A DNA stretch of 64,000 bases from Gluconobacter frateurii (lineage in GTDB: Bacteria; Pseudomonadota; Alphaproteobacteria; Acetobacterales; Acetobacteraceae), in the NCBI RefSeq assembly GCF_002723955.1, contig NZ_BEWN01000001.1:62001-126000 (forward strand), written 5' to 3'. Below, one piece after another: positions 5,972 to 13,653 of the stretch. Both the position numbers and the translations under genes were made by a program. The notes under the pieces were generated by a model. That model saw nothing but the letters and a program-made list of their open reading frames with translations, did not search any database and was not told the origin of the DNA. Position 1 is the stretch's first letter. Each line of letters opens with the position of its first letter.

Positions 5972-7069
5972 ATGCGGTGCGCCTTTGTCATCCAACATAT
6001 TAATGCAACAGGCGGAACCGAGCGCTCTGCCTGTGCGGTGATGAACGGGCTTGTTCAGCGGGATGTGACGGTTCATCTGCTGGAACTTGTGGGAAACGGC
6101 CCGCCCGTTTTTCCGCTGGATGACAGAATTCCCGTAAAATCCCTGTTTGAAAAGCCGGTAAAAATTTTCAATTCCTGGCCCCGAATTGTTGGGAGACTGG
6201 TGGGCTATCTGAAGCGTAACCGCATCGACACACTGGTAGTCGTGGAAGCCACACATGCTCTGTATGGCGTGGCTGCCGCCCGTCTGGCTGGATGCCGTTG
6301 CATCGTGTGGGAGCACTTCAATTTCAACATTACGCTGGGGCGTCGCAAACGGGTCTGGGGGCGACAGATTGCGGCCAGATGGGCTGACGATGTTGTTGTT
6401 CTGACGGCTCGGGACAAGGCGCTTTGGCAGGCAGGACGGGACGTTCGGGCGTCTCTGGTAGTCATCCCCAACATGGCTCCTCTTGTCTGGCAAACGCCTT
6501 ATGATGAGACATCCCGAACCGTTCTGACGGTAGGCCGACTGACGCCACAGAAGGGATACGACCTTCTGTTGGCGGCATGGCGGATGGTGGAAGCTGATGC
6601 CCGCAGTGCAGGTTGGTCTCTGCTGATCCGTGGGGACGGCCCCGACCGGGATCGTTTGCTTCAGGCCGCAGAAGGGCTTTCGTGCGTGATGCTGGCTCCG
6701 GCAACACACCAGATTGAAGCGGAATATCGGCTGGCTGGACTGTATGTTTGTTCTTCCCGGTATGAAGGATTTCCCATGGTTCTACTGGAAGCCGCGTCGG
6801 CCGGGCTGCCGGTTGTGTCGTTCGATTGTGAAACCGGGCCAGCGGAAATCGTGGAAGACGGCGTGAGTGGGGTTCTGGTTCAGCCGGGCGACTTTCACGC
6901 GTTGGCCGAGGCGCTTCTGTCCTTGATGGAGCAGACAGAAAAACGGCGGGCTATGTCTGCCATGGGCCGCCGCAAAGCATTGGAGTTTCAGGAAGAGACG
7001 GTCATGGCCCGATGGATCGAGTTGCTAAGCGGCGAGGTGGTTTTCAGGATTTTTTTCGGAAAAGCCTGA
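5972..7069 (+). CDS. GT4-family glycosyltransferase (group 1)
   Basis: Predicted cytosolic GT-B glycosyltransferase of 365 residues. The N-terminal Rossmann half has a donor-loop element NATGGTERSACAVMNGL. The C-terminal half carries TVGRLTPQKGYDLLLAAW and the retaining-enzyme EX7E motif in YEGFPMVLLEAASAGLPVV. It is closest to amylovoran/GalNAc-type GT4 enzymes (LPS or exopolysaccharide assembly). Donor and acceptor cannot be read from the sequence. Its last 26 nt overlap the 3' end of the convergent methyltransferase gene, and the giant Hint-glycosyltransferase protein lies further on, so this looks like a glycan patch. Confidence 0.88.
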   Translation: MRCAFVIQHINATGGTERSACAVMNGLVQRDVTVHLLELVGNGPPVFPLDDRIPVKSLFEKPVKIFNSWPRIVGRLVGYLKRNRIDTLVVVEATHALYGVAAARLAGCRCIVWEHFNFNITLGRRKRVWGRQIAARWADDVVVLTARDKALWQAGRDVRASLVVIPNMAPLVWQTPYDETSRTVLTVGRLTPQKGYDLLLAAWRMVEADARSAGWSLLIRGDGPDRDRLLQAAEGLSCVMLAPATHQIEAEYRLAGLYVCSSRYEGFPMVLLEAASAGLPVVSFDCETGPAEIVEDGVSGVLVQPGDFHALAEALLSLMEQTEKRRAMSAMGRRKALEFQEETVMARWIELLSGEVVFRIFFGKA

Positions 7070-8147
7070 AGGCTGCCCGTAAGGGGGCTGTTAATTTCCA
7101 GGAGGTAGAGGCGCGGATGATTTCAAGATCGCGCTGCGCCGCCAAGGCAGACTGAGCGAGATGCTCTTCGCGCGAACTGCCGTAAAATTGCTCTTCTTTT
7201 TTCTTGATGCCTTCTAGTGTTGAGCCGGCGCAAATTACCTTCAGAGTTTCACCGTTCAGGTCTTTGCAGAAGGGCTGCTGGATCATCTGCGGGATGGAGG
7301 ACGAGAGAAAGTCATCCACGCGCAGAGCGCCGAACTGGGTTTTGACCGTTTCAGGCAAGCCGTTTTTCCATTCCTCCATCATCCAGCGCAGGGCGTGTAC
7401 GGGGTGGAAATGTTCCTCTACGCTACAAAATTGAATGTCGCACCACTTCTCGAAAAGGCTGATATTTCCTTCGGGCGTGGCGTTGAAATAATGCGAGGGA
7501 TAGCCATGGACCGGCTGCAGGAAGGGATAGTCTATTCGAACTATGCCGCCGGGTTTCAGTACCCGGCAAATTTCAGCAGCGACCTCCCAGGGGCGCTTTG
7601 TGTGTTCCAGTGTGGCGGCGCAAAGCACGAAATCGAACTGGGCATCAGCAAAAGGCAGATTTTCGCCAATACAAACGACGTCGGTGCTTAAAGACGGAAA
7701 AACGTCAACGTTGACCATCTGGCTGGTGACGCTGTCCCGCAGTCCGGCCCCGACGTCCAGAAACATCCATTCTGGATGCTGTTTCTGGAGGTTGGAGATC
7801 TTGTCTCCATAATTATGAGCGGAAATGGGCGGGAAGGAGGGAATGTGAAAATCCCGCTTTATGGCATCCGTCATGTAATTCGCGGGCTGGCCATAAGTGC
7901 GTGGAGTGGTAGGGGGCTGGCGAAATTCGATACGGGCTAGCTTCTTCTCGCGTATGTCCGCAATGGCATTCTGGTTAGTGGCCTGCATACGTCCTTCGTG
8001 CTGGCCATAGTGTACGAAATGCTGGGACGCGGACAGCATACATGTGGCAACATCGGGATTGGCCTCCCAATATCCGATGTCATCGGACGGTGATTCAAAA
8101 ATTGGTTTTCTGATTACCGAGGCTTCGGTATACGAAAAATTCTGCAT
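7044..8147 (-). CDS. SAM-dependent methyltransferase with N-terminal glycan-associated repeat motif
   Basis: 367-residue class I methyltransferase. The SAM-binding region is MFLDVGAGLRDS near residue 136, with the acidic strand VNVDVFPS, motif FDFVLCAATLEH and post-motif RVLKPGGIVRIDYPF (Methyltransf_11 type). The first 55 residues contain YWEANPDVA...HFVHYGQHEGR, a short element seen ahead of glycosyltransferase and methyltransferase domains in polysaccharide loci. The ATG at 8147 was chosen because GAGGAA sits six nt before it; a start 36 nt upstream is possible. It probably methylates a glycan or rhamnan-type chain, but the substrate is inferred only from context. Confidence 0.83.
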   Translation of the reverse strand: MQNFSYTEASVIRKPIFESPSDDIGYWEANPDVATCMLSASQHFVHYGQHEGRMQATNQNAIADIREKKLARIEFRQPPTTPRTYGQPANYMTDAIKRDFHIPSFPPISAHNYGDKISNLQKQHPEWMFLDVGAGLRDSVTSQMVNVDVFPSLSTDVVCIGENLPFADAQFDFVLCAATLEHTKRPWEVAAEICRVLKPGGIVRIDYPFLQPVHGYPSHYFNATPEGNISLFEKWCDIQFCSVEEHFHPVHALRWMMEEWKNGLPETVKTQFGALRVDDFLSSSIPQMIQQPFCKDLNGETLKVICAGSTLEGIKKKEEQFYGSSREEHLAQSALAAQRDLEIIRASTSWKLTAPLRAAFRLFRKKS

Positions 8148-8308
8148 GATATTTCCTCGTCTTCTATTTTTCGTAGCTTGCATATTCCGGCAAGCTTTTG
8201 AAGCTCTCCACTCGTGCTGACGATGGTCGGCAATTGTTTTGCTGTGTTTGAGGTGTATGGGGAATTTATTGTGAGGAAATGGATGTGGCGGCGAGAGAAA
8301 ATATTCTT

Positions 8309-8379: not shown

Positions 8380-11300
8380 TTAACCTGCCGCGCGAAGGGC
8401 AGATTTTTGGTCCAGCGCACTGTTAAGGGCCGCCATGACGGCGTCTTCAGAGAACGTCGCCTGTGTGTAAGCCTGTCCTGCCTGAATAATGTCTGACAGG
8501 TCCTTGGCTTTGTGGAGTGCGACGATCTGGCGAGCCAGATCTTCCGCTGTTGTCTTCACGAGCGACTGAAGGCTCTTCGGTAGGGTCAAGCCCTCGGCTG
8601 CAACGGGTGTCATGATGCAGGGCACACCTGCGGACAGGCTTTCCAGAACCTTACCCTTGATGCCTGCACCGAAACGCAGCGGTGCAACGCTCAGGCGAGC
8701 CTGACCGAGAACGCTGCCCAGATCCTGCACATGCCCCAGAATGCGGATACGGTCGTTGGCCAGTGCGTGGATGCTGTCTGGCATCTCTGCTCCTACGAGG
8801 GTGCAGGTGATGGTCGGGTCCATGGCCCAGACGACCGGCATAATGTCCTGAACCAGCCAGCGGGCGGCATCACCGTTCGGGGCATGGGCGTAGTTGCCGA
8901 CGAACAGCACGCCATTGCGGTTTGTGGTCTCGGAAGCGGTTTGCGACACAGCCCAGGGCACGACATGCACATTCGCCTGAGGCAGATCCTTGAGAAGCTG
9001 TGCGGCTTCGGTCTGGGAATGCGTCAGCACGGCATCGGCCTGAAGAGCGGCGCGATATTCTGCGACCCGAACCTGATTGGCCTTGGCCATCAGTTCCGGG
9101 CGTCCTTGAATGGCGGCCTGACGGGCCAGACGCAGGAAGTGCAGATCCGCCACACTATACAGGACGCGGGCCTTGGTCTGGTTGCGACGGACAAGCGCCA
9201 TGTAGCGCGTGGCGACGTCTTCCCGGTGCAGATACACAACGTCAAAGCTGTCTTTCTGGCGGGACAGTGCATCTTCCACGGATACGAAGACCGGTGCGCC
9301 CTGAACAGTCACGGTCGGGAGCGTGTCCAGACGTGTGGTCAGGGTCATCTGGTCTGCTGCGATGAAGCAGACGTCGTATCCCAGACCTTCCAGTGCGGCC
9401 ATGTGAGACAGAATGGCCTGTGATCCTGCATCCCGCTTTGCATCCGGGCGCAGGCTGTCGATCACCAGAGCGCGTTTGCGCTGCGGTGCGCTGGCAGTTT
9501 TCATGCCCCGGCGACGGCGTGTGGCGTTGAGCGCCTTATCCGTCAGGCCGCTGATGGCCTGTGCACGGGACTGGCGGAGTTTTTCGACCTGGCCCAGCAG
9601 AAAGGACAGAACCTGATCGCCAGCCTGTTCGTCAGCAGTGGCTTCGACAGCGCGGGCGACGGTCTGCTCCATATCTGCGTCGAACATGCCCACAGGCTCC
9701 AGAACCTGCGGTGCGCCGAGGAGGGCGCCATCGCTTTCACGACGTACTTCCAGAATATGACGCGTCAGGGGCGAGAGGCCGCCCGGCAGGATGACATCAA
9801 ACCCGCAGAGCAGCGGACGGCCCGTTTTTGCAACATCGGGGCGTCGACCATTGGCCAGGACGGAGGCCAGAATTACACCGTTATCCACGACTTGAAGCGT
9901 TACCGCGTCTTCAGGAGCTGCCGAGTTCGTGACCCAGCCGGAGATGCGATTGCGGGTGGCGATGTCGATGCAGCCGTCCAGAGGGTCAACCGGAGTAGAC
10001 GCCACGATAGCCAGTGGGGCTTTGTGTTCCTTCTGGTCCATCATCCAGGGCGTGTTGCCGAGGGCAGCACCGTCCGTGACGCGGCGGACTTCGAGAACAT
10101 GACGCTCCAACGGAGACAGCCCCCCCGGAATGTCAAACCGGAAGCCACAGGCCACCCCAATATCCGGGCGAGCCTTATCAGCCCGAATTTCGCCCAGAAC
10201 CACACCGTTATCGATGATCTGAAGACGGACAGGCTTCACGCTTCCTGCAACGCGTGCCCAACCTTCGATGCGGTTATGGGTAACAACATCCACATAGCCT
10301 TCCAGATCACCTGTTGCGGGCTGGATGTTGGAAGACAGGGCGTTCAGACGGCCACGGACGGCGGCCAGAAGAGCGCCTTCCTCAACGCGTGGGGCGCAAT
10401 ACTGAGCCGGAACCGGTTCTGCATTCGGGTAGAGCACGCTGTAGTCGGCGGCGTTGTGGAACATGCCGCGAGAGCTGTCGTCCACGAAGGTTTCAGACTC
10501 CGCGCCGTTTGCGAAAATGACGTCGTGGCTTTCCAGTTCAATATGGAAATACGCGACTTCATCCATGCGCTCGGCCTGCACGATGCTGCTGCCGTTCACG
10601 AGCGACAGAGCCGGGATCAGCACGCCGTCCAGATACATGGCATGGAGCGGGGAGACGGACAGGTCCTGTTCAGGAATGTTCTTGCCGAGAGATCCCTTGC
10701 GGAAAGTGACCGGCAGGATATCGCGGTTGCCATTGGCGAACGTGCCGGAATAGCTGCGGCGGCCGATCCAGTGGATGGGGCGCAGGCCGTTCGAGCGCGT
10801 CTGGATCAGGTCACCAACTTCAAGCTGTTCGACCGGAACGTCGCCGCGTTCTGTACGGATCAGCGTGCCGCGGCAGTAGCAGGGGGTGCCTTCCGCCAGA
10901 AGCATCGTACCACCCGTACTGTCGGACTGAAGGGTGAAGAAGTCGGCGTCGTAAGCGCTATCGAGGGCGATCGTATAGGTGTCGGTGCCGTTGGATACTT
11001 CCAGCGTGGAGGGATCGGTCAGGGTTGCCGTGGCACTGTCGGACCAGGCGAGTTCCGGCAGGTCCACTTTGGCGCCGCTGGCCAGACGGATGTTCCGGGT
11101 CGTGCTGCCGGCATAAAGCGCAAGGCGGCTGCCATCCCCAACGCTGACGTTTGAGGCTGTGCTGCCGCTGTGGACAGCCGCGGTCTGGCTGCCCGTCAGG
11201 GCGACGTCAGACAGGGCTGCACCGTTCGTAGCGCTGTAATCCGTCATTTCCAGTAGCGTCAGGGACGGATCGTGGTCGGATTCACCGTCCAGCTGGCCTG

Positions 11301-13653
11301 TATTGACGTGCAGGGTCTGGAACTGGCCTGCATTGGCAAAACCGTCTGTGCCGATGGTGTGATCGAGGGACTGGGCGTTGCCTTCATAGATGTAGGTGTA
11401 GCGATTACTCGCGTCTTCCTTGGTCTCCATGTCCGTCAGGCCAGCATTGGCATAGACCTGATTGGCGTCGCTCCATGCCACGTCATTGAAGTCTCCAAGG
11501 ATGCCAACCTTCGCGGTCGGATCGCTTGAAAGCTGGTTCTGGACGTAGTTCGTGATGTACTGGGCCTGAGCAATACGATTGTTGACGGTGCTGGTCGTGC
11601 CGCCATGGTTCACGGGGGGCTGCGTGGCACCATAAAGTTCCGAGCTGCCAGCCTGGGAGGACAGATGCACGTTGATGAGCGTGACGTCCTTGCCGTTGAA
11701 CTCGAAGGTTCCAACCAGTGGCAGGCGGGTGTTCTTGAAGGTTCCGTCCAGCTCTTCACTGCCGATGGTGGTGACAGGTTCTTTCAGCGTGACGCGGTCT
11801 GTGTTGTAAAGGAACACGCTGCGGATGTTGCCGCCGGACACACCGCCCTGCGTGCCGTTCGCCGGATCGACCTGTGCCCAGGAGTAGGTCGGGCCACCCG
11901 CATCGGCGATGGCCTTGACCAGAGCGGCAAGGTTCTGTTCCGCACTGACGGTGCCGTCATTCGTGGTGCCGCTGTCGTCCTGGATTTCCTGAATGGCCAG
12001 AACGTCAGGATTATCGAGATTTTGCACGATGATCTTGGCGACCTGTGCCAGACGGTCCGCATTGGCCGGATCAAGGGCGTTGAAGTTCTCGATATTATAG
12101 TCACTGACGAGAAGATTCTGCTCGTCCTTGTGGAAGGTCGTGACCGGAGCAGGGGTTTCCGTGTGAATGACCGTGACCTGCGTGGTCGGGATTAGCTCAT
12201 AAACGCCGTTGTAATAAGTCAGGACGCCCGTAATGTCCCCGAGCTTGTCGCCCACTTCGGCGCTGATGGCAGAACCGGGAGTGACGCCGCTGTCGTAATA
12301 GATTTCGACGCGCTGAGTGTTGATGCTGCTCTCGGTGCTCTGAAGCGCACCGGTAGGCGTCAGCAGACCATTGCCATTGTCCGGCACAACCCATGTGGCG
12401 TTGGAGGCTGTGGCACCGGTCGCCACGACATCATGCAGGGTAACGACCTGACCGATGAGGTTACGATAGAAATCAAGAGCATTCGTGTCGGGGCTTAGAG
12501 ACGCCGTGCTCTTGTTAAGATCGATCGCCTGCTCAAGGTCCCCGAGGTAAGACGCGGCTGGAACCGTCAGGCCGCCCTGACCAATGACCGTTGGGGCAAT
12601 TTCTGCGTAGGCAGCACCCGTGTCTGTGTAAGAGACCAGATTGATTTCTGGCAGGGTAAGGGACTTGCTCCAGGAGGTGCCAGAGTAGTTCGTGACGGTG
12701 CCGGTGATGGTAACAGTCTCACCCACGGTCGGAAGGGTGGCTGTCTTACCCGCATAAACAAAGATGCCTGTGCTGCCGACGGTGTTCTGGTCTTTATCCG
12801 CTTGCTGAACCCAGAAGCCGATGCTGCCATTCGTATCGATTGCCGTGACGACGCCAGCGGTCGTGACGCTGGCCCCCGCATACGGACTGTAATAGCCGAC
12901 GCCATTGATCTGCTGGATTGTCAGGGTCTGGGGCGTGGTGCTGGTTCCGCCAGACGAGCTTCCACCTGTGTCCGATCCGGTGCCAGTACCCGTGCCACTC
13001 CCGGTATCGGACCCCGTAGAGCCGCCTGTGCCGGTGTCAGAACCTCCTGTGTCGGTTCCTGTCCCCGAACCGCCTGTAGAGCTGCCGTCATTAGCGGCAC
13101 CGGGTGTGACCAGAACCGTTCCCGCAGCAGCAGTGGTTCCGTAGCCGTCAATGCCGGCAAGTGAGGGGTCATCAATCGCCCAGTCGGAGGCACTGTTCGT
13201 GTCTGTTCCATCAGGAATGCGGGACGCGCCGGCAATCAGCTTGCCTGTCAGAACCGGGGCGCCAGCATAGGTCGGATCGCCGCTGCCACCGTCTGAAACG
13301 GCAATCGTGTCCCCTATTTCAGACCATGGTGTGGAGGTGAAGGTGCCTGCGTTGGCAGTGTCGAGGTCATCGCCAGCCTTACCGGTGAAATTCTTGACCA
13401 AAAGGACAGTTTGCGTGCCGTTCTGCAAAGCATTTGTCTGGTATGGCGTCACCCAGTAGCCAGCGCTGTTGGTCGTTCCGAGCTGGAAAACATTGTCAAT
13501 CTTGCCCGCAACGCTGCCGTCGCCATCGACAACGATCAGTGACCATTCGCTGTAATCTGTGTCAGCATCCCCTTTGACTTCAATAAATTCGTTCGGATCT
13601 CCAGAAACACTTGGATTAAACATGAATTCATTGATCAGAAGATTGGATGTCAT
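8380..13653 (-). CDS. Multidomain nuclease-Hint-glycosyltransferase fusion protein (1757 aa)
   Basis: Uninterrupted frame of 1758 codons. Domains in order: lamin-tail-like (LTD) fold at about 1-185 (LLINEFMFNP...NEFIEV); Gly/Ser/Thr linker 188-240; two OB-like segments around 244-345 and 395-500; endonuclease/exonuclease/phosphatase domain 510-802 with VSDYNIENF, catalytic Glu in LAIQEIQ, NVHLSSQ, LGDFND, LDHTIG and SDHDPS, i.e. all main metal/catalytic motifs; passenger-like Ser/Thr/Asn stretch 806-915; Hint domain about 921-1060 with nucleophile-type Cys925 in PCYCRGT and SPLHAMYLDGVLIPA; two about 90-residue repeats at 1118-1204 and 1225-1320; GT4-like glycosyltransferase 1390-1757 with APLRFGAGIKGKVLESLSAGVPC. 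There is no signal peptide and no RTX repeats. LTD-OB-EEP is the architecture of secreted ExeM-type nucleases, so a cytosolic-type glycosyltransferase at the C-terminus is odd. Hint self-cleavage could separate the halves, but this is inference. Confidence 0.85.
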   Translation of the reverse strand: MTSNLLINEFMFNPSVSGDPNEFIEVKGDADTDYSEWSLIVVDGDGSVAGKIDNVFQLGTTNSAGYWVTPYQTNALQNGTQTVLLVKNFTGKAGDDLDTANAGTFTSTPWSEIGDTIAVSDGGSGDPTYAGAPVLTGKLIAGASRIPDGTDTNSASDWAIDDPSLAGIDGYGTTAAAGTVLVTPGAANDGSSTGGSGTGTDTGGSDTGTGGSTGSDTGSGTGTGTGSDTGGSSSGGTSTTPQTLTIQQINGVGYYSPYAGASVTTAGVVTAIDTNGSIGFWVQQADKDQNTVGSTGIFVYAGKTATLPTVGETVTITGTVTNYSGTSWSKSLTLPEINLVSYTDTGAAYAEIAPTVIGQGGLTVPAASYLGDLEQAIDLNKSTASLSPDTNALDFYRNLIGQVVTLHDVVATGATASNATWVVPDNGNGLLTPTGALQSTESSINTQRVEIYYDSGVTPGSAISAEVGDKLGDITGVLTYYNGVYELIPTTQVTVIHTETPAPVTTFHKDEQNLLVSDYNIENFNALDPANADRLAQVAKIIVQNLDNPDVLAIQEIQDDSGTTNDGTVSAEQNLAALVKAIADAGGPTYSWAQVDPANGTQGGVSGGNIRSVFLYNTDRVTLKEPVTTIGSEELDGTFKNTRLPLVGTFEFNGKDVTLINVHLSSQAGSSELYGATQPPVNHGGTTSTVNNRIAQAQYITNYVQNQLSSDPTAKVGILGDFNDVAWSDANQVYANAGLTDMETKEDASNRYTYIYEGNAQSLDHTIGTDGFANAGQFQTLHVNTGQLDGESDHDPSLTLLEMTDYSATNGAALSDVALTGSQTAAVHSGSTASNVSVGDGSRLALYAGSTTRNIRLASGAKVDLPELAWSDSATATLTDPSTLEVSNGTDTYTIALDSAYDADFFTLQSDSTGGTMLLAEGTPCYCRGTLIRTERGDVPVEQLEVGDLIQTRSNGLRPIHWIGRRSYSGTFANGNRDILPVTFRKGSLGKNIPEQDLSVSPLHAMYLDGVLIPALSLVNGSSIVQAERMDEVAYFHIELESHDVIFANGAESETFVDDSSRGMFHNAADYSVLYPNAEPVPAQYCAPRVEEGALLAAVRGRLNALSSNIQPATGDLEGYVDVVTHNRIEGWARVAGSVKPVRLQIIDNGVVLGEIRADKARPDIGVACGFRFDIPGGLSPLERHVLEVRRVTDGAALGNTPWMMDQKEHKAPLAIVASTPVDPLDGCIDIATRNRISGWVTNSAAPEDAVTLQVVDNGVILASVLANGRRPDVAKTGRPLLCGFDVILPGGLSPLTRHILEVRRESDGALLGAPQVLEPVGMFDADMEQTVARAVEATADEQAGDQVLSFLLGQVEKLRQSRAQAISGLTDKALNATRRRRGMKTASAPQRKRALVIDSLRPDAKRDAGSQAILSHMAALEGLGYDVCFIAADQMTLTTRLDTLPTVTVQGAPVFVSVEDALSRQKDSFDVVYLHREDVATRYMALVRRNQTKARVLYSVADLHFLRLARQAAIQGRPELMAKANQVRVAEYRAALQADAVLTHSQTEAAQLLKDLPQANVHVVPWAVSQTASETTNRNGVLFVGNYAHAPNGDAARWLVQDIMPVVWAMDPTITCTLVGAEMPDSIHALANDRIRILGHVQDLGSVLGQARLSVAPLRFGAGIKGKVLESLSAGVPCIMTPVAAEGLTLPKSLQSLVKTTAEDLARQIVALHKAKDLSDIIQAGQAYTQATFSEDAVMAALNSALDQKSALRAAG
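9694..10302 (-). repeat. Two tandem protein-domain repeats in the fusion gene
   Basis: Encodes residues about 1118-1204 and 1225-1320. Both copies share the pattern G-[YC]-[VI]-D-[VI]-x-T-x-N-R-I-x-G-W, later D-N-G-V and R-P-D, then CGF, and GGLSPL-x-RH-[VI]-LEVRR near the end. The copies are divergent (not recent) and separate the Hint domain from the glycosyltransferase. Confidence 0.8.
12934..13092 (-). repeat. Low-complexity Gly/Ser/Thr/Asp linker repeat
   Basis: Encodes residues about 188-240, made of short GTGTDTGGS-like units. It is imperfect, in frame, and joins the LTD-like domain to the nuclease part. It may vary in length between strains by slippage. Confidence 0.8.

Follow-up and report, generated by a model that had tools for sequence, protein, structure and literature searches.

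Dedicated glycosyltransferases (GTs) accompany several bacterial adhesins, and in these systems a cytosolic enzyme glycosylates an adhesin that is subsequently exported. Among nucleases, ExeM is reported to be extracellular or membrane-held (PMC6085458), and Hedgehog provides the precedent for esters made by a Hint domain (PMC7765530). Elements resembling all three meet in one gene of Gluconobacter frateurii, which lies in a 64,000-nucleotide stretch of contig NZ_BEWN01000001.1 (hereafter the window) from a genome of 3.3 Mb. The encoded protein has the order LTD-like domain, OB, EEP nuclease, Hint_2, two repeats and a GT4/GT-B glycosyltransferase; the repeats are beta-sandwiches of about 100 residues, for which the label 'GWA' is used here. 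The Hint-GWA-GT part is an exchangeable tail, which recurs fused to other passengers or split into neighbouring Hint and GWA-GT genes. The first-pass annotation of this DNA had not recognised the tail as a cassette that recurs.

Recurrence and exchange of the Hint-GWA-GT tail

The GT part finds matches at 1e-40 in 24 of 26 genomes of the genus and in 119 of 299 genomes of the family. Eighty regions, fetched mostly by rank with some chosen in the genus itself, were scanned with profiles derived from the domains of the window protein. Hint is fused to or directly precedes 57 of the 78 frames that encode GWA and GT: 31 contain it in the same frame (two of these being the nuclease gene itself) and 26 lie directly behind a Hint gene, with gaps of -400 to +105 nucleotides, the large overlaps being taken to reflect early alternative starts. 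Two more frames have a Hint further upstream and two have no flank. Split Hint and GWA-GT neighbours are thus found elsewhere in the family, and the window's own genome has such a pair as well (G000 contig C2, about 237.7-241.2 kb). The fused proteins are as long as 4306 (L129) and 4637 residues (L135), with 22 and 24 AIDA stalk stretches in the respective passengers. When ten passengers of tail-bearing proteins were scanned, alongside three further sequences (two ordinary Hint proteins and one sister nuclease), AIDA was matched in four, nothing in Pfam in five, and one gave a sub-threshold match only. A quick tree of the GT with 102 rows requires at least eight changes between the fused and neighbouring states, of which strongly supported branches force only two to three. 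Since the Hint-bearing passenger and the GT are repeatedly fused or adjacent, there is strong evidence that they work together. GWA domains occur on GT2 proteins too, and so go with glycosyltransferases and not with Hint as such.

The nuclease itself has exchanged its tail. Residues 1-888 match at 1e-20 in 25 of the 299 family genomes; three of these matches are nuclease-Hint-GT proteins, four (L041-L044) are LTD-OB-EEP-Hint proteins without GT, and the remaining 18 show no Hint in the fetched frame, 7 of them being cut by the end of the locus. The GT-less nucleases are homologues in sister genera with a different type of Hint, and neither GWA nor GT was found in the 3.6-4.0 kb downstream of them. 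A tree of 122 Hint domains places these four with 19 ordinary Hints that bear a C-terminal domain (CTD) of about 153-165 residues (SH-aLRT 98), and nests the nuclease-Hint-GT proteins within the remaining 99. Of these 99, 92 are labelled GT-linked (L185_2528 solely through a GWA gene) and seven are not; two of the seven (L165 and L295) belong to a cluster that contains a GT, for L166 a GT is encoded on the opposite strand, and the others lack a flank or a GT. Because the Hint tree separates the Hints of GT-less nucleases from the GT-linked ones, the tail must have been exchanged. The pre-Hint region, about 123 residues in the GT-fused nucleases against 4-5 in the GT-less ones, belongs to the exchanged unit.

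Some loci show other arrangements. For example, L326 (G005 contig C1) has three tandem Hint genes ahead of a single GWA-GT gene, as though three passengers shared the one GT. In L210 a fused Hint-GT gene is accompanied by another Hint gene, downstream of which no GT was found, and L214 has two consecutive Hint-GT frames, the first with a partial GT.

Conservation and domain content of the fused gene

The uninterrupted frame and the domain set reported at first pass, with its LTD-like N-terminus, were both confirmed, and the same architecture was found elsewhere in the Acetobacteraceae. The fused gene is intact in 11 of 26 Gluconobacter genomes, the window's included, and in Acetobacter fallax and A. 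senegalensis (L203, L221); in one Gluconobacter genome, G002, it appears interrupted between residues of about 190 and 360 (L019 / L037). The best match in a scan of named genomes lies on a contig of G. cerinus NBRC 3267. When the 13 full-length copies are compared in ten segments, every segment has a median pairwise dN/dS of 0.06-0.23 (31 to 77 of 78 pairs per segment, saturated or too-close pairs being excluded), which indicates that every segment is under purifying selection. Given this selection and the intact copies in two genera, the fused frame is not a sequencing slip.

The Hint_2 domain (PF13403) scores 156.8 bits against a gathering cut-off of 28.4 bits and has the conserved Cys and block-B His; C925, H1004 and H1043 are invariant in the 13 copies. 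By eye, block F seems to end in ANG-AESETF and not in the His-Asn expected of a splicing intein or A-type BIL, and an FHN stands about 11 residues further on (1065-1067). In the nuclease half, the OB-EEP order and the EEP catalytic motifs of the ExeM/NucH type are present, and N520, E556, N609, H663, D721, N723, D764 and H794 are likewise invariant. The ExeM/NucH model NF033681 gives 150 bits, below its curated cut-off of 300 bits. The LTD-like domain had no Pfam match, and residues 1-190 align only to relatives within the analysed set. The C-terminal domain has the GT-B fold and matches Pfam Glyco_trans_1_4, with R1660, K1666, K1668 and E1687 invariant in the 13 copies; TIGR03087, the PEP-CTERM/XrtA glycosyltransferase, scores 92.2 bits against a cut-off of 316.65. 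Enzymes of the GT4 type are, by family, retaining. The coordinates are collected in Table 1.

Table 1. Domains of the fused gene, with residue ranges and positions in the window
Feature	Residues	Positions	Strand	Remarks
Whole fused gene	1757 in all	8380..13653	(-)	one open frame; 13 intact copies including the window's
LTD-like domain	3-188	13090..13647	(-)	profile from window residues 1-190
Ser/Thr/Gly/Asp linker	189-243	12925..13089	(-)	51% Ser+Thr
OB-like region	244-495	12169..12924	(-)	
EEP metallonuclease domain	505-800	11254..12141	(-)	
Pre-Hint region	801-921	10891..11253	(-)	short solenoid-like stub, judged by eye
Hint_2 domain	922-1104	10342..10890	(-)	Cys925 codon 10879-10881
GWA repeat 1	1117-1206	10036..10305	(-)	beta-sandwich, Fn3/Ig-like prediction
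GWA repeat 2	1224-1319	9697..9984	(-)	
GT4 / GT-B glycosyltransferase	1392-1746	8416..9480	(-)	

Possible functions of the fused protein

Judged from architecture and comparison, the protein may be a cargo with its own modifying tail, in which the GT acts in cis on an exported passenger and the Hint cleaves or activates the junction; this explanation is offered tentatively, at somewhat less than an even chance. The cargo would be an ExeM/NucH-like nuclease with predicted DNase activity. The GT would work on it in the cytosol, probably glycosylating either residues 189-243, the Ser/Thr/Gly linker, or the stub that precedes the Hint, and the fused protein would be the counterpart of the neighbouring gene pairs of Hint-passenger and GWA-GT. 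At Cys925 the Hint would act through an N-S acyl shift and thioester hydrolysis or transfer, parting the nuclease from the GT; as the two are fused, this would have to happen before or during export. A cut there would turn the protein of about 185 kDa into parts of about 95 kDa (residues 1-924) and 90 kDa (925-1757). Hydropathy revealed no N-terminal signal sequence or hydrophobic stretch in any of the 13 fused copies, so export would not run through Sec, and the nuclease would leave the cell by a route independent of a signal peptide. The first-pass annotation had remarked that an exported-type nuclease and a GT using cytosolic donors seem to belong to different compartments, and had suggested that the Hint may separate them. 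Both thoughts fit the finding that the halves are separate neighbouring genes elsewhere in the family; easy spontaneous cleavage, for its part, is argued against by the residue before the Hint Cys.

That residue heads the observations that weigh against a cargo modified and released by its tail. A Pro stands at -1 of the Cys in 70 of 96 GT-linked Hints, against 2 of 19 of the CTD type, and a -1 Pro is unfavourable for the N-S acyl shift in inteins; cleavage may therefore be slow, triggered or absent. One fused protein (L133) retains its GT with an eroded Hint. Seventeen of the 78 GWA-GT frames have no Hint upstream on their own strand, and six of the ten scanned passengers gave no AIDA match. 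Passengers of GT-linked Hints are no richer in Ser+Thr than those of the CTD type (medians 0.234, n=94, and 0.253, n=23 including the four GT-less nucleases; p=0.24). The linker between LTD and OB is 34-60 residues long in 13 of 13 GT-fused nucleases and 10-14 in 4 of 4 GT-less ones, a contrast that counts as one evolutionary event and not as many. Moreover, no secretion gene was recognised beside the locus, and with a GT at the C-terminus, a type I signal located there would be buried if no cut were made.

A bolder version, which is rather doubtful, would make the Hint-GWA-GT4 cassette a self-modifying cargo system, swapped among unrelated cargoes at its N-terminal side across the Acetobacteraceae, which glycosylates its cargo in cis and whose Hint thioester releases the cargo or joins it to a glycan. 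If this were true, any protein placed ahead of the cassette would become a surface or secreted glycoprotein.

It is unlikely, by a slightly wider measure, that Hint, GWA and GT-B form a surface anchor, binding or staying on cell-surface glycan, with the GT serving as a lectin or acting on a cell-surface polysaccharide instead of on the passenger. The predicted Fn3/Ig-like sandwich of GWA and its presence on GT2 proteins would suit such a role. Ordinary Hint_2 proteins have a different C-terminal domain of about 153-165 residues at the same position, and the two kinds of tail may thus be terminal modules that stand in for each other. However, R1660, K1668 and E1687 are invariant in an alignment of 23 fused proteins, which points to catalysis, and GT4 enzymes require nucleotide sugars, which are unavailable outside the cell.

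A ligation like that of Hedgehog is distinctly improbable. Here the nuclease would pass from a thioester at Cys925 onto a sugar, or onto a glycolipid, made or held by the fused GT, and so be tethered at the surface. The conserved Cys/His chemistry and the physical pairing of Hint with GT are what such a reaction would call for, but the -1 Pro speaks against it as well.

Very unlikely is an intracellular toxin or anti-phage nuclease restrained or modified by the GT half, a reading close to the toxin-like one considered at first pass. The lack of a signal peptide by hydropathy and of a recognised secretion gene nearby would agree with it. However, AIDA-repeat passengers (4 of 10) carry the same tail, GT-less nuclease-Hint relatives exist, and comparison of the loci revealed no conserved immunity gene. 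The adjacent methyltransferase gene did not turn up in the 18 other loci searched, and among the loci compared only four, all from other Gluconobacter genomes, have the same gene order. The nuclease half resembles ExeM, which is reported to be extracellular or membrane-held (PMC6085458). A polymorphic toxin in particular was rejected on its variable C-terminal toxin domain, as here the N-terminus varies and the C-terminal tail is constant.

Finally, a chance gene fusion without functional meaning has next to no probability and is largely refuted. In its favour, split neighbours do exist, and in one case (L024) just a single stop codon separates Hint from GT. Against it, 11 of 26 Gluconobacter genomes and two species of Acetobacter retain the fusion, dN/dS is low in each half, and fusions of the tail to many other passengers recur.

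Surroundings and comparison with known systems

Directly downstream of the fused gene lies a methyltransferase gene (7044-8183, minus strand; N-terminal motif YWEANPDVA..HYGQHEGR), which looks like a species- or strain-specific insertion: a search of 18 other loci, a number that includes some places twice, did not find it. The convergent GT4 gene that adjoins the fused gene (5972-7069, plus strand) has the same position in four other Gluconobacter genomes, including G. cerinus; the gene order around the fused gene is common to four other genomes of the genus and to none of the remaining loci. As at first pass, re-examination recognised no immunity or secretion gene beside the fused gene. Elsewhere in the same genome, locus L334 (G000 contig C2, about 490.6-501.5 kb) contains a type I ABC/HlyD gene pair, behind which come a Sel1-repeat gene and the genes for a 984-residue GT2-GT4 protein, a 303-residue product and a GT4 enzyme. 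It is a secretion locus with its own glycosyltransferases and a plausible candidate for the export route of the nuclease. An 843-residue protein that combines two GT2 stretches with two GWA domains (L320:506-3037, minus strand) is encoded at about 2.5 kb from the final GT4 gene of that locus and at about 10 kb from its HlyD gene.

No earlier case of Hint chemistry and a glycosyltransferase in one chain is known to us, and a tail that glycosylates and processes its own cargo would be the first such single chain. In that event, a DNase with a short Ser/Thr/Gly linker would be a directly testable substrate, and the tail might serve acetic acid bacteria used in industry as a portable means of making secreted glycoproteins. 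Even otherwise, a large and little-studied set of Hint_2 proteins gains a function-linked neighbour.

Hint_2 proteins number 2-17 per genome in all 26 Gluconobacter genomes. The window protein is like them in its Hint score, far above the cut-off, and in the solenoid-like passengers that are found elsewhere too; it differs in that the GT-linked Hints form a separate group in the Hint tree. Ten ordinary Hint_2 proteins examined in the window's own genome have a C-terminal domain of about 154-165 residues and no GT. The unannotated domain of 153-165 residues common to ordinary Hint_2 proteins (L310-L319, L321-L325, L327-L329) has DDRR.LGV, GW and RWT.GNA-like motifs.

As in AIDA-I/AAH, HMW1/HMW1C and EtpA/EtpC, the passenger is paired with a GT, whose gene in this family is either its neighbour or fused to it; the GT-B fold and, in some passengers, AIDA repeats are shared too. 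Likewise, the SDR proteins are paired with the dedicated glycosyltransferase SdgB (PMC3794999). In contrast to adhesins with an adjacent GT, the enzyme here is of the GT4 type, is fused in cis behind a Hint and is a putative modifier of its passenger. ExeM of Shewanella has LTD, OB-like and EEP domains in an order matching the LTD-like, OB-like and EEP parts of the window protein, with OB-EEP motifs that align (PDB 9sf9/9sf8); it has a signal sequence (aa 1-24), of which hydropathy gives no sign in the window protein, and a C-terminal anchor where the latter has the Hint-GWA-GT tail (PMC6085458). In polymorphic toxins such as MafB and CDI, whose Hint is a pre-toxin domain, the Hint also lies within a large modular protein, whereas here the variable part is N-terminal, the constant tail is C-terminal and no immunity gene was seen. 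Hint-processed proteins and passengers with dedicated glycosyltransferases are both known kinds, and the fused protein is best described as what appears to be a new combination of them, a putative DNase cargo on a recurrent Hint-GWA-GT tail.
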